A stretch of DNA of 64,000 nt from an alpha proteobacterium HIMB5 (lineage in GTDB: Bacteria; Pseudomonadota; Alphaproteobacteria; Pelagibacterales; Pelagibacteraceae): assembly GCA_000299095.1 (NCBI GenBank), contig CP003809.1, positions 124,001-188,000 of the forward strand, in the 5' to 3' direction. The notes under the pieces are model-generated. The model saw only the letters and a program-made list of their open reading frames with translations. It was not told the origin of the DNA and ran no database searches. The position numbers and the translations under genes are program-made. Below, in pieces: positions 9,520 through 55,507 of this stretch (the stretch's first letter is position 1; each line of letters starts with the position of its first letter).

Positions 9520-10667
9520 AGAAAATTGCAATTATTGGAGCTGGAATATCTGGATTGTATTTAGCAAATATTTTTAAACAAAACTCTGACTTTAAGGTTT
9601 TATTATTTGAAAAAAATGAAGAAATAAATTTGGATGATGGTTATGGGATACAGCTATCTAATAATAGTGTTAAATTATTAAATTATATTGGATTTGATCA
9701 ATTAGATAATAGTCAAAAATTTTTTCCAGATAATCTAGATTTTTACTCAATAGATAATCCTGATAAGATTTGTGATCTAAATATTTCAAAATTTAATTCT
9801 GCTAATAATAAATATACAACAATAAAAAGATCATCATTAATTAAGTTTTTAATTAGCAAAATTTCAAAAAATGATATTTTTTATGGTCATGATATTTCAA
9901 AAATTGATTTGAAAGAAGATAAAATAGAGCTTTCATTTTCAAATGAATATTCAGAAAAATTTGATTATTTAATTATTGCTGATGGTGTATTTTCAAAAAG
10001 TTCTTCATTAATTTCAAATTCAAAAAACTCTTTAAAATTTAATAATTCAGTAGCTATAAGAGGAACTATAAATAGAGATAAAATTGAAAAAATAAATTTT
10101 CAAAATATCTCTTTATTCCTTGGCGCTAATTTTCACTACGTAATTTATCCAACATCAGAAAATGAAGATTTAAACTTTATTGGTATTTTAAGAAAAAACT
10201 TAAACAAAGATCGATTAAAAAACTATCAACAATTCAATTCCTCAGATTTTGTTGATGAAATAGTTTCTGAAATTCCTCCAACATACAATCAGATAATTCA
10301 TAAATTAGATAATTTAAAATGTTTTCCAGTATTTATTACTGATGAAATTTTACATCTAAATAACAAAAATATTTTTACTGTAGGAGATGCTTTTTTTGCT
10401 TTCCCTCCATCTTTTGCTCAAGGCGCTTCTCAATCAATTGAAGGGTCTCATGAACTTTTTCAAAACTTTTCAATAAATGAAACAGAAAAATATTTTCCTA
10501 GAAGGCTACAAAAAACAAAAATGGTAAATAAGCGTTCAAAATTTAACCAATTTGCTTTTCATCTATCAAATCCGCTATTTATTTTAACAAGAAACTTAAT
10601 TATGAAAAGACTAGTAAAAAATGAAAAATTTTTAGAAAGTTACTTAGGTAAAATTTATGATAATTAA
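9516..10667 (+). CDS. FAD-dependent aromatic-ring monooxygenase (UbiH / salicylate-hydroxylase-like)
   Basis: A 383-residue group A flavoprotein monooxygenase. It shows the N-terminal GxGxxG motif [15 protein letters not shown], a central [11 protein letters not shown] (DG motif), and the C-terminal GD motif [25 protein letters not shown]. Enzymes of this fold use NAD(P)H and O2 to hydroxylate aromatic or ubiquinone-precursor rings. The [13 protein letters not shown] stretch is typical of the superfamily, but the substrate is not identifiable; a ubiquinone hydroxylase is one possibility because UbiH-like enzymes are needed for aerobic respiration. It starts within the mutY stop (ATGA) and ends on a TTAA shared with ccrM. 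Confidence 0.8.
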
Positions 10668-11734
10668 TTTTTAGGAATTAATCTTTGTCTTAAATGATCT
10701 ATGGGTACAATATTACCATTCATATTATAATGCCAATAAGTCCACCCATTACAGCTTTCAGCTCCTAAAATAGTTGCTGCTACTTTATGGATTGATCCTT
10801 CAGCTTGTTGATGTTTGATACTTCCATCAGCCATAATTTTTGCATTAATTTTCTTTTTATTATCAAATATTATCGTACCCGGTTTTATTATTCCAAGTTC
10901 AACTAATGAGCCAAATGGAATTCTTGGTTTTGATCTGTTGTTTTTTAATGTATCTAAGAAATCATCTTCTATTGGTTTTATATCCTTAAGTCTTTGTTCA
11001 ACAGCTTTGAAATAAGTTTTTTCTTTTTCTATACCATAATATTTTCTACCTAATTTTTTGGCAACTGCAGCTGTTGTGCCTGATCCTAAAAAGGGATCTA
11101 AAACCAAATCATTTTTGTTTGTAGTGGCTAATAATATTCTATGAAGTAAAGCCTCTGGCTTTTGAGTTGAATGTATTTTCTTACCATTTTTTTTTAATCT
11201 TTCTGTACCACTACAAATTGGCAGGTTCCAATTTGATCTCATTTGAAGATCATCATTTAAACATTTAAGAGACTGATAATTAAATGTGTATTTTGATTTT
11301 TCTGATTTTGATGCCCAAATTAATGTTTCATGAGCATTAGTAAATCTTGTGCCTCTAAAGTTTGGCATTGGATTATTTTTGTTCCAAATTACATCATTAA
11401 GTATCCAAAATCCGAGGTTTTGAATTGTATATCCAACTCTAAAAATATTGTGATAACTCCCGATTACCCAAATAGCTCCATTTTTTTTTAGAACTCTTTT
11501 GCATTCACTCAACCATTCAAATGTAAATTCATCATATTTTCTGAAATTTTCAAATTGGTCCCATTTGTCATTAACCGCACTAACTTTCGATTGATCAGGT
11601 CTGCTTAGTTCATTTTTAAGTTGCAAATTGTAAGGAGGGTCAGCAAAAACTAAATCAAAAGTTTCGTCAGGAATTTTTTTTAATTCCTTTAAACTATCAC
11701 CATTTACAATTTTACTTTTTGCTTCAAAATTCAT
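10664..11734 (-). CDS. ccrM: CcrM-type GANTC adenine-N6 methyltransferase
   Basis: A 356-residue beta-class N6-adenine methyltransferase. The catalytic DPPY is at residues 32-35 ([11 protein letters not shown]) and the SAM-binding motif is [24 protein letters not shown]. The C-terminal RAMA domain (about 270-356, ending [21 protein letters not shown]) is characteristic of CcrM. In Caulobacter and relatives CcrM methylates GANTC once per cell cycle and controls genes including ftsZ. rnhB and a UDG gene lie upstream on the same strand, a 119-base gap away. The gap contains two GANTC sites, suggesting self-regulation. The gene has no restriction partner, as expected of an orphan regulatory methylase. 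Confidence 0.95.
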
Positions 11735-11752
11735 TTTGTATAAGTGAAAGTA

Positions 11753-11768
11753 GACTCCAAAAAGATTC
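11753..11768. promoter_or_regulatory. two GANTC methylation sites upstream of ccrM
   Basis: GACTC at 11753-11757 and GATTC at 11764-11768 lie 19-34 bases upstream of the ccrM ATG. GANTC is the CcrM recognition sequence and reads the same on both strands. In Caulobacter the ccrM promoter region also carries GANTC sites whose methylation state affects its expression. The sites are seen directly; regulatory use is inferred. Confidence 0.5.
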
Positions 11769-11853
11769 TGTGGTCAACCTGGGATTGAATTAATTTAAGC
11801 TTAATTGTGTCTAAATTTTTATGACAACAATATATTGTGTTTCTACGTGAAAC

Positions 11854-12414
11854 TTATTTTAATTTAGAGATCGGTGCAAAAGTTTTTCGATGATGAATAG
11901 TTATTCCATGTTTTTTTATAGCAACTAAATGTTTTTTAGTGCCATAGCCACAGTTTGTTTCCCAATAATATTTATTAAACTTTTTTGATAAATTTTTAAC
12001 TAGTCTATCTCTAGATACTTTGGCAATAATTGAAGCCGCAGAGATACTAGGTATTTTTTTATCGCCCTTAACTACTGATTTTAAATTATAATTTCTAATT
12101 TCTGGAGTTTTGTTACCGTCCACAAGAATTAATTTAGGTTTTTTCTTAAGCTTCAATATTGCTCTTTTCATTGCGAGAAGAGTTGCATTTAAAATGTTTA
12201 ATTTTTCGATCTCTTTTACTGACGCTTTTCCTAGGCTCCACGTAGAGTTTTGTTTAATATATTTTGCAATTTTCTCACGTTCATTTTTATTTAGAGTTTT
12301 TGAATCTTTTAATAATTTTTTATTTATTTTTTTATCCAGTATTACTGCAGCAGCAAAAACTGGTCCCATTAAACTTCCTCTGCCAACTTCGTCAACACCA
12401 GCAATAACTTGCAT
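11854..12414 (-). CDS. rnhB: ribonuclease HII
   Basis: A type 2 RNase H (about 186 residues) that removes ribonucleotides from RNA-DNA hybrids. The metal-binding N-terminus IAGVDEVGRGSLMGPVFAAAV contributes Asp and Glu, and a second acidic residue is in KLILVDGNK. ISAASIIAKVSRDR is the typical C-terminal motif. The ATG at 12414 overlaps the UDG stop by one base (TGATG); an in-frame GTG three bases upstream is an alternative. Synteny with ccrM downstream is common in alphaproteobacteria. Confidence 0.94.
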   Translation of the reverse strand: MQVIAGVDEVGRGSLMGPVFAAAVILDKKINKKLLKDSKTLNKNEREKIAKYIKQNSTWSLGKASVKEIEKLNILNATLLAMKRAILKLKKKPKLILVDGNKTPEIRNYNLKSVVKGDKKIPSISAASIIAKVSRDRLVKNLSKKFNKYYWETNCGYGTKKHLVAIKKHGITIHHRKTFAPISKLK

Positions 12415-53052: not shown

Positions 53053-53409
53053 GCCAGATAAATGATTTATCGCTTTTATTTTTATATAAAAGAGGAAAGT
53101 CCGGGCTCCGAAAGGATACAGTGCCAGGTAACGCCTGGCGGGGGCAACCCTAGGGATAGTGCCACAGAAAATAAACCGCCATATCATGGCAAGGGTGAAA
53201 AGGTGTGGTAAGAGCGCACCGGTTCTCTTGGTAACAAGGAACGCTGGAAAACCCCACTGGGAGCAAGACTAAGTAGAGATGACATTGTTTAAATACTAAA
53301 AGCTGTCCTTAGCTAGTCATCAGGGTTAGTTGCTTGAGCTTTAAAGTGATTTAAAGCCTAGACAAATGATAAATTTAAACGACAGAACCCGGCTTATATT
53401 TTATCTGGC
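53053..53409 (+). ncRNA. rnpB: RNase P RNA (bacterial type A)
   Basis: The conserved 5' block GAGGAAAGTCCGGGCTCC and the 3' block ACAGAACCCGGCTTA are both present, with the central GGTAAGAGCGCACC and GGCAACCCTAG blocks between. The ends pair as P1: GCCAGATA at 53053-53060 with TATCTGGC at 53402-53409. Roughly 357 bases, slightly shorter than E. coli. The exact 5' end is set by P1 pairing. It is much GC-richer than the surrounding sequence, as structural RNAs are in AT-rich genomes. Confidence 0.96.
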
Positions 53410-53448
53410 AAACTTCTTTAACATTCCCTTAATAAATGTTCACGTTTT

Positions 53449-53506
53449 GATTCACTTTTTCTTTATTTAAGAATCAAATATTAAGAGATTTGTAAGGTAT
53501 TGACTC
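53449..53506. promoter_or_regulatory. three GANTC (CcrM) sites upstream of mraZ-ftsZ
   Basis: GATTC at 53449-53453, GAATC at 53471-53475 and GACTC at 53502-53506 all lie in the 161-base gap between rnpB and mraZ. The first two are arms of a 7-base inverted repeat (TTGATTC, GAATCAA). The third overlaps the -35 element. CcrM is encoded in this window. In Caulobacter, GANTC methylation activates ftsZ. Presence is observed; control is inferred. Confidence 0.5.
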
Positions 53507-53528
53507 TATATTATATATCCCATATTAT
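53500..53528 (+). promoter_or_regulatory. sigma-70 promoter for the mraZ-ftsZ division cluster
   Basis: TTGACT (53500-53505) and TATTAT (53523-53528) are separated by exactly 17 bases, a near-consensus sigma-70 promoter. Transcription would start near 53535 and give a leader of about 35 bases before the mraZ ATG at 53571. Confidence 0.7.
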
Positions 53529-53551
53529 CCCATATATTCCCAAATATGGGA
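53518..53551. promoter_or_regulatory. MraZ-box repeats overlapping the promoter
   Basis: TCCCA occurs at 53518-53522, 53528-53532 and 53538-53542, an exact 10-base period (unit TCCCATAT-N-N). Read on the other strand these are TGGGA repeats, which fit the TGGG-type direct repeats bound by MraZ in E. coli and Mycoplasma. An inverted TGGGA follows at 53547-53551, making a 7-base inverted repeat with the third box. The boxes bracket the -10 and start site, so autorepression is expected. Confidence 0.75.
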
Positions 53552-53570
53552 ATTTTAAAATTTATGGATT

Positions 53571-54026
53571 ATGTTTTTATCGAGTTACGAAAACAATATA
53601 GACAAAAAAGGAAGGGTATCAGTGCCAGCAAGTTTTAGAGCATATATATCTAATCTTGGTTATAATAGTGTAATTTGTTTTCCTTCATTTAATAATCAAT
53701 CTATAGAAGCATGGCCGCAAGATAGAATTGAAAAAATTTCAAATAGCATAGATATTTTAAATCCATTTGATGAAAAAAGAGATTATTTTGCAACTTCTGT
53801 TTTAGCTGAAAGTATTAACTTACAATTTGATAGTGAGGGAAGAATATCATTAACAGAAAAATTATTAAAACATGCTAAAATAAAAAAAAGCATGGTGTTT
53901 GTTGGTCAAGGAAAAACATTTCAAATTTGGGAACCAACAACTTTTGAGAAATTTAAGACTAATGCCAGAAAAAAATCAAATTTAAATCGAGGAAGTCTTA
54001 AATGGGAGCAGCAATTAAATAAATAA
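53571..54026 (+). CDS. mraZ: transcriptional regulator MraZ
   Basis: A 151-residue MraZ/AbrB-fold regulator with two tandem copies of the domain: N-terminal [24 protein letters not shown], second [20 protein letters not shown]. It represses the division and cell-wall cluster through repeats in its own promoter, which are present 20-50 bases upstream. ftsZ follows after 14 bases, preceded by the strong ribosome site AGGGGAA. Confidence 0.95.
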
Positions 54027-54040
54027 CAGGGGAAATAACG

Positions 54041-55507
54041 ATGACTATAAACTTTAAAACACCAGAAATTAAAGAGCTTCAGCCGAGACTACTTGTATTA
54101 GGAGTAGGTGGTGCAGGAGGAAATGCAATAAATGAAATGATTGATAACAATCTTCAAGGGGTAGAATTTATTGCAGTAAATACAGATGCTCAAGATCTAA
54201 AAATGAGTAAAGCTAGAACTAAGATACAATTAGGTCTTAATCTTACAAAAGGTTTAGGTGCTGGTGCAAAATTAGATATTGGTCAAGCTGCTGCTGATGA
54301 GTCATTAAATGAAATTGTAAATACTCTACAAGGTGCAAATATGGTTTTTATTGCTGCTGGTATGGGTGGTGGAACAGGAACTGGTGCTGCACACGTTATT
54401 GCTAGAGCTGCAAAAGAATTAAATATTCTTACTGTCGGCGTAGTTACTCTTCCTTTCCTTTATGAAGGCCCCTCAAGAATGAGAAGAGCTCAACAAGGTT
54501 TAGAGGAACTTAGAAAACATGTTGATACAATTATAGTTATTCCAAATCAAAATTTATTCAAAATTGCAAATGAACAAACTACATTTGAGGAATCATTTAA
54601 TCTTTCAAATAATGTTTTAATGCATGGAGTTCAAAGTATAACAGATCTTATGGTAAGACCCGGTTTAATTAATCTTGATTTTGCAGATGTTGAAACTGTG
54701 ATGGCATCAATGGGCAAAGCTATGATGGGAACTGGTGAAGCTGAAGGAGAAGGTAGAGCTTTAAAAGCCGCAGAGATGGCAATCAGTAATCCTTTAATTG
54801 ATGATTATACATTAAAAGGTGCTAAAGGATTATTAGTAAACATTACTGGTGGCAAAGATTTAAAACTTTTTGAAGTTGATGAGGCAGTAAATAAAGTAAG
54901 AGCTGAAGTTGATCCAGAAGCAGAATTAATTATTGGAGCAATTACAGACTCAGATTTAGATGGAAAAATGAGAGTTTCAATTGTTGCAACATCTTTAGAT
55001 GGTCAACAACCTGAAGCAAAATCAGTAATTAATATGGTGCATAGAATACAAAATAGAAACCCAGGGTATTCAGATTTTTCTAATTTGGGGACAGCATCAT
55101 TTACTTTTTCAACTCAATCTTCAAATCCTGTTTCGCATGGTGCTAATGCACTTAAGATTGATAACGAGGTAATAGAAGAGCAAAAAAATATGATGGAGGG
55201 AGCAACCTCACAAGAAATGAACACCTCTTCTAATACTGAAGTAGAGCAAATTATTGATGAAAGTTCCTCATTACATGAACAAGAAACATCCTTTACTCAA
55301 GAAGCATTAAATAATGACCAACATTTAGAAGAAACTCAAACTGAGGCTACATCAAATGGATTAGAGGAATTTGGTGTTGATATGGAAGAACCAGATTTAT
55401 TTAATACTTCAAGTGGAAGCGAACAATCAGAACCTTTATTGTTGGAAGACGAACAAGAAGAGGATGATTTAGAGATACCTGCATTTTTAAGAAGACAAAA
55501 AAATTAA
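54041..55507 (+). CDS. ftsZ: cell division GTPase FtsZ
   Basis: A 488-residue tubulin-like protein that forms the division ring. The nucleotide signature [11 protein letters not shown] is at residues 107-117, the nucleotide-binding [15 protein letters not shown] at 19-34, and the T7-loop region [20 protein letters not shown] is intact. A long acidic Ser/Gln/Glu-rich linker (about 355-475) leads to the conserved C-terminal peptide [10 protein letters not shown]. Position between mraZ and rsmH is unusual: in most proteobacteria ftsZ closes the cluster after ftsQ-ftsA. It uses the best ribosome site in the cluster, consistent with high expression. Confidence 0.98.

Follow-up and report, generated by a model that had tools for sequence, protein, structure and literature searches.

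The window analyzed here, the whole 64-kb stretch of DNA at C1:124001-188000 of a 1,343,202-bp genome (5,000 bases of which read N), contains the genes for an amidase, rnpB, mraZ, ftsZ, and rsmH in this order. The RNase P RNA gene rnpB (53054 to 53412, plus strand) lies directly 5' of the mraZ promoter region and is followed by mraZ (53571 to 54026, plus strand), which encodes a protein of 151 amino acids with two MraZ domains, and by ftsZ (54041 to 55507, plus strand). The name ftsZ, like those of rsmH, umuC, clpX, ribonucleotide reductase, and the MFS, PqqC-like, glycosyltransferase, and GFA genes, was assigned by eye. An earlier note on this DNA had described ftsZ as the second gene of the operon, and this arrangement was confirmed: an ftsZ homologue comes next after mraZ in all 48 same-genus loci and in 21 of the 22 loci from a second family, the contig ending at the remaining one. 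In five same-genus loci (L018, L019, L025, L029, and L035), the ftsZ start is located about 160 bp farther from mraZ (at +626/627 versus the usual position of approximately +470).

The operon is preceded by a sigma-70-like promoter, TTGACT-17-TATTAT (53500 to 53528), with the −35 hexamer TTGACT at 53500 to 53505 and the −10 hexamer TATTAT at 53523 to 53528, both on the plus strand. Taken by itself this match is weak, since the 401-bp region contains three such matches and shuffled sequences contain 1.9 on average; the TTGAC is kept in all 48 same-genus loci. Around the −10 hexamer lie three TGGGA boxes on the minus strand (53518 to 53542; TCCCA on the plus strand at 53518, 53528, and 53538) with a period of 10 bp, as the earlier note had described, and the array proved to be far above chance. 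An inverted GGGA after the boxes completes the sequence TTCCCAAATATGGGAA (53537 to 53552). TTGAC, exactly 14 nucleotides, and three CCCA at a 10-bp period are present at all 48 same-genus loci, that of this genome counted, and the pattern TTGAC-N14-CCCA-N6-CCCA-N6-CCCA was found in 215 of the 300 genomes scanned in the genus, most of them incomplete, and in 39 of the 44 near-complete ones; the reversed control pattern was absent from the matches listed in the 300-genome scan. In our genome, the array CCCA-N6-CCCA-N6-CCCA occurs a single time on either strand. For the second family, 22 of 36 mraZ matches were taken in list order, and the longest box runs comprised five boxes in 14 loci, four in 5, three in 2, and two in 1.

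An MraZ operator is recognized by at least three TGGG-type direct repeats with a 10-bp period upstream of mraZ, and the MraZ boxes of Escherichia coli are TGGG repeats with this period; three such repeats lie 5' of mraZ here. Judged by this conservation, the three boxes are a real operator that is near-universal in the genus. The −10 hexamer fills the spacer from box 1 to box 2 and takes in the first base of the latter, so that bound MraZ should cover it. By analogy with known MraZ proteins, binding of MraZ and repression of its own operon are predicted. The MraZ autorepression systems of E. coli and Mycoplasma are alike in having direct-repeat boxes 5' of mraZ and ftsZ downstream, with a single operator per genome in Mycoplasma genitalium, where loss of MraZ raises FtsZ; the boxes of Mollicutes are AAAGTG[T/G] repeats (PMC8475190). 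The present locus differs from these systems in that ftsZ is the second gene, the −10 hexamer lies between boxes 1 and 2, and binding is a prediction.

The same promoter region contains three CcrM-type GANTC sites, which the earlier note had likewise located correctly: GATTC (53449 to 53453), beginning 36 bp past the end of rnpB, GAATC (53471 to 53475), and GACTC (53502 to 53506), which overlaps the −35 hexamer. GANTC is depleted in the window (84 sites seen, 183 expected), and its intergenic number genome-wide (113 sites, 1.78 per kb) equals the 117 expected by shuffling. According to our own crude gene calls, three GANTCs within 60 bp outside genes occur at three places in the genome, namely, upstream of mraZ, umuD, and clpX, and, by a rough calculation by hand, fewer than one such cluster would be expected genome-wide at the intergenic density given above. 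The cluster at mraZ is unusual and is not decisive alone. The third of these clusters lies at C1:487180-487239, upstream of the gene named clpX by eye.

The comparison with shuffled sequence across relatives that the earlier note had proposed went against the three sites as a genus-wide feature. Within 130 bp 5' of mraZ, 17 GANTCs were seen in the 48 same-genus loci versus 11.2 in dinucleotide shuffles; 11 of these loci have any, and three are found in this genome only. In the second family, none of the 22 loci has a GANTC within 130 bp of mraZ, and one has it within 250 bp. We therefore discarded genus-wide enrichment as support. GAATC at 53471 has no counterpart in the other 47 same-genus loci, and the −35 GACTC is missing from 41 of the 48 and present in 7 of them; on a larger scale, TTGACTC was found at the mraZ promoter in 45 of 399 genomes. 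These observations could be accommodated if only the MraZ operator were functional and the GANTCs were incidental, the GACTC being TTGAC plus two bases, the site at 53449 a relic, and that at 53471 chance. Besides the near-shuffle numbers around mraZ and among intergenic sites and the absence of sites within 130 bp in the second family, TTGACTC in 7 of 48 loci is not far from what base composition would give. We nevertheless consider this account rather unlikely in view of two observations on the site at 53449, its exact second copy and its association with the −35 GACTC, both described below. Four of the 48 loci (L034, L038, L039, and L043) have a GANTC at another place, 10 bp before TTGAC; this lineage-specific CcrM site on the same promoter differs from those described above and is left unexplained by a paired-site model. 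CtrA was also considered as an input, through a TTAA-N7-TTAA at about 53418, and was rejected: just 2 of the 48 loci have such a sequence, at differing positions, and a ctrA ortholog is reported to be missing from Pelagibacter (PMC2877005).

The genome encodes the proteins that could write and read GANTC methylation. The ccrM gene (10664 to 11734, minus strand) encodes a CcrM-type methyltransferase of 356 amino acids (Pfam N6_N4_Mtase, 232 bits; RAMA, 65.5 bits), for which GANTC specificity is taken from what has been published for the genus (PMC9516812). GcrA is encoded at C1:1074108-1074539 (132.5 bits), DnaA at C1:1198936, and LexA at C1:528151. In cultured Pelagibacter NP1, 99.86% of GANTC sites (3477/3482) were reported to be fully methylated, the level being lower close to the origin when cells were growing, and in sea samples 71 to 95% were methylated (PMC9516812); neither ftsZ nor mraZ is mentioned in the main text of that article. 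CcrM of SAR11 is also noted in PMC3973325, and few probable GcrA targets are reported for Pelagibacter ubique (PMC7987155), which weighs against the model of the promoter proposed below.

The promoter of ccrM itself served as a positive control. It contains a tandem GANTC pair, 11 bp apart (11753 to 11768), inside the Rfam element bablM (11731 to 11801, minus strand), with the sequence TTGACCACAGAATC-N6-GAGTC. A tandem GANTC after TTGAC is present in 26 of 29 same-genus ccrM loci, in this window, and in 8 of 8 loci of the second family. The loci read, 29 from the genus and the 8 best matches in the second family, are a part of all matches. The spacing of the pair is 10 to 12 bp, and the N of the first site takes all four letters. 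The three misses were L110 (GAATT), L178 (AAATC), and L182 (second site not found). The maintenance of this pair indicates that the order conserves CcrM-site promoters. Between ccrM and rnhB lies TGTTTCTACGTGAAACT (11838 to 11854), which we take to be a near-parS sequence one base longer than parS; similar sequences are present in several same-genus ccrM loci.

The GATTC at 53449 is part of a longer sequence, block B (53436 to 53459, plus strand), consisting of ATGTTC-N3-TTTTGANTCA and a tail. An identical copy of all 24 letters of block B lies 5' of umuDC (C1, approximately 220132-220155, minus strand; identity read by eye). The 17-letter core has exactly two exact copies in the genome, upstream of mraZ and of umuDC, which argues against the sites being incidental. 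A matrix derived from umuD blocks in 25 further genomes gave 34.1 bits for both copies, and the next best match, inside a gene, scored 15.9 bits. Applied to the 48 mraZ regions, the same matrix found 12 strong matches (including this genome) and 1 weaker match, always on one strand and just past rnpB, and 11 of these 13 keep the GANTC. In loci L010 and L012, block B is kept and its GANTC lost, and L010 still has TTGACTC. Block B is missing from the other 35 of the 48 loci. Since 41 of 48 loci lack the −35 GACTC, 35 of 48 lack block B, and none of the 22 loci of the second family has a nearby GANTC, a CcrM input at this promoter cannot be a general SAR11 property.

At umuD, by comparison, the block with three GANTCs is kept in all 26 same-genus loci with a readable umuD upstream region. 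In our genome, the umuD block (locus L185; C1:220115-220155) contains a DnaA-type box and three GANTCs, 11 to 12 bp apart. ATGTTC-N3-TTTTGANTCA is present in 215 of 300 genomes, and 30 fetched loci with this element lay upstream of umuD (23) or mraZ (7). A longer form that includes the second GANTC was found in at least 119 stretches of a named collection. Among 80 of its loci, 58 were upstream of umuD, 3 upstream of mraZ, 18 at other or undecided places in Pelagibacter (14 of which were read, some near the end of a stretch), and 1 was a chance match in another phylum; 79 of the 80 belong to Pelagibacter or Pelagibacteraceae/-ales. Viral contigs gave no exact match to the longer pattern. The sequence TTATCCACA, which we regard as a DnaA-type box from its consensus, ends 21 to 23 bp before ATGTTC in 65 of the 76 blocks with enough flank and occurs at a similar place in the mraZ loci L018, L042, and L246. 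In some genomes, an umuD-type block stands beside MFS/PqqC-like or glycosyltransferase/GFA genes (named by eye). Because the block B twin is in some genomes found beside genes without being at a promoter on that side, block B may not be an activator site.

An alternative reading that concerns block B only takes it for a degenerate LexA operator, GTTC-N7-G(A)TTC, which would connect division with the SOS response, its GANTC being a by-product of the half-site. In favor of this reading, the twin of block B precedes umuDC, at whose start there is also a canonical GTTC-N7-GTTC. Boxes of this type are likewise present at lexA and at a ribonucleotide reductase gene (named by eye), an overlap of LexA motifs with GANTC has been noted as possible (PMC7987155), and L010 reads GGTTC, keeping GTTC and losing GANTC. 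Set against this, not one of the 48 rnpB-mraZ regions contains the GTTC-N7-GTTC that defines a LexA box, the half-site spacing in block B is one base off, and umuD retains its canonical LexA box separately. Among 30 mraZ loci with block B, furthermore, the N of its GANTC is C in seven and A in one, which would break the TTC half-site. We therefore attach very little probability to a LexA operator in block B.

The site at 53449 is also associated with the −35 site. When TTTTGANTCA was searched for 35 to 65 bp before TTGAC in 399 genomes, block B was found near the mraZ promoter in 40, and the −35 sequence was TTGACTC in 37 of these; the exceptions were G251 and G029 (TTGACAC) and G319 (TTGACTA). 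In the 300 genomes shared with the operator scan, TTGACTC accompanied block B in 25 of 28 promoters, versus 6 of 187 promoters without block B (Fisher 7e-24, relatedness ignored); all 28 are within the 215 genomes with the MraZ array. Eight TTGACTC promoters lie outside the 40: G361 and G137 have the element minus its last A, G142 and G007 have a longer form, G050 reads GGTTC, G170 has no element, and G358 and G101 were left unread. From the GANTC of block B to the GAC of TTGAC, the distance is 50 to 55 bp in 37 of the 40 and 63 bp in 3, with 43 to 73 bp allowed by the search (distances are from match coordinates, and the three promoters without TTGACTC were measured to the GAC of TTGAC). Among the three promoters with 63 bp, two (G348 and G406) are near-copies. 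These distances are near five and six helical turns, and since the 50- to 55-bp spread amounts to half a turn, helical phasing is only suggestive.

The DNA between the two sites has a median identity of 47% (30 of the 40 loci). ATGTTC, which was not fixed by the search pattern, was present at 28 to 30 of 30 per letter, and the N of the block B GANTC, whose GA and TC were fixed by the search, was T in 22 of the 30. The tight spacing across a diverged spacer, together with TTGACTC in 37 of 40 promoters with block B and the ratio of 25 of 28 to 6 of 187, suggests that the sites at 53449 and 53502 are co-maintained in a sub-lineage and counts against the account in which only the MraZ operator is functional. 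On a tree from MraZ and the start of FtsZ (69 rows), the traits were scattered, the element changing 11 times and TTGACTC 8 times; 11 rows had both, 8 the element alone, 1 TTGACTC alone, and 49 neither. A 51-row tree gave eight element changes and five TTGACTC changes. A model with dependent traits was preferred to one with independent traits on the 69 rows (LR, 15.1; P = 0.0045), in a test that used one tree with a midpoint root and in which single rates are ill determined. The association may partly reflect shared descent. Taken together, there is moderate evidence, from sequence comparison, that the sites at 53449 and 53502 may work together. Of the convergence of CcrM and MraZ on one promoter that the earlier note had put forward, the near-universal MraZ operator and the pairing of 53449 with 53502 in a sub-lineage stand; the site at 53471 is unmatched, and the arrangement does not extend to SAR11 as a whole. 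A coupling of the two inputs thus appears partly supported, as a lineage-specific feature.

The relatives of block B have been annotated as RNAs. The umuD block corresponds to Rfam family RF01827 (SAR11_0636 sRNA) and the ccrM promoter to RF01784 (bablM sRNA), both from Meyer et al. 2009 (PMC2704228); among the other papers listed as naming bablM, none discusses it, judged by their titles. Block B and its umuD twin might accordingly be a structured RNA related to SAR11_0636 rather than a DNA site. Meyer et al. 2009 proposed a separately transcribed RNA for SAR11_0636 (PMC2704228), RF01827 was above its gathering score in all six umuD loci scanned, and four loci with the block beside other genes gave 38 to 63 bits, below the gathering score of 67. 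RF01827, which holds the block B twin, did not recognize the mraZ copies scanned, with no match at L003, L018, L042, and L246 up to an E value of 10. The central hairpin of both RF01827 and bablM is the tandem GANTC pair, 11 bp apart in each, with the N unpaired; because any two GANTCA sites are able to base pair with each other, a hairpin of this kind does not speak for an RNA. The constrained distance to the −35 hexamer argues for DNA, and no covariation-supported base pair is reported for SAR11_0636 (PMC2704228).

Our own pair count on 68 distinct blocks is void as a covariation test, the search pattern having predetermined four of the six pairs completely and each of the remaining two on one side. 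In 26 loci chosen by protein, the umuD hairpin is invariant but for one loop letter, and folds of the umuD block of L186 gave z-scores of −1.30 and 0.43. We consider a structured RNA at block B improbable, and for the cores of RF01827 and bablM, DNA sites for CcrM (and, in the former, a DnaA-type box) are favored over RNA structure. As its hairpin is the tandem GANTC with the N unpaired, bablM might represent a CcrM site for autoregulation instead of an RNA. Tandem CcrM sites may thus account better for two SAR11 RNA families of Rfam, whose annotation would then have to change.

As an explanation for the whole promoter, we propose MraZ self-repression combined with a sub-lineage layer of paired CcrM sites, a proposal to which we give slightly better than even chances. 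MraZ on the three TGGGA boxes around the −10 hexamer would repress its own operon, FtsZ included, and would set the ceiling of promoter output. In the sub-lineage, the second layer would consist of the −35 GACTC and the GANTC about five helical turns upstream in ATGTTC-N3-TTTTGANTCA, kept as a pair. CcrM would methylate both sites; a methylation-sensitive protein, most likely GcrA with sigma-70 RNA polymerase, would read the −35 site, and some protein on the ATGTTC/GANTC element would contact the same complex. Once the replication fork has passed, both sites would be hemimethylated, so that promoter strength would change once per cycle. As for the direction, higher activity in the fully methylated state, as for Caulobacter ftsZ, is a guess.

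The ftsZ promoter of Caulobacter is most active when its conserved CGACTC, located between the −35 and −10 of ftsZ's own promoter, is fully methylated (PMC3708114). At our locus, too, the core promoter of the FtsZ-producing unit contains a GACTC; unlike in Caulobacter, it forms part of a TTGACTC on the −35 of mraZ-ftsZ and is paired with an upstream GANTC, an arrangement seen in roughly one-tenth of the genus. Among the papers searched, none joined MraZ, ftsZ, and GANTC. If the proposal holds, paired CcrM sites that meet an MraZ operator would form a concrete, testable node of division timing in a genus reported to have no ctrA. SAR11 are very abundant ocean bacteria, and the putative switch fronts a key cell division gene cluster.

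A more far-reaching joint reading is that Pelagibacter carries a portable DNA element, TTATCCACA, 21 to 23 bp, and ATGTTC-N3-TTTTGANTCA-N5-GANTC, which would read the replication state via CcrM methylation. Its copies would be those at the translesion-polymerase genes umuDC (filed as the SAR11_0636 sRNA) and at mraZ-ftsZ, the latter having, in one sub-lineage, shrunk and become wired to the −35 GACTC. We regard this reading as doubtful and offer it tentatively. If it were true, two SAR11 'sRNA' families of Rfam would be methylation switches and not RNAs, and division and damage tolerance would be under one replication-timed input in a genus without CtrA. A role of the umuD block as oriC was not supported: the block lies at 0.22 Mb and the GC-skew minimum at about 1.28 Mb, and at most two boxes of the pattern used are present in any 400-bp stretch of the genome. 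In the second family, all three umuD upstream regions read (L212, L213, and L214) have TTGACTC followed by a LexA-type GAAC-N7-GAAC, that is, a CcrM site on the likely −35 of another gene.
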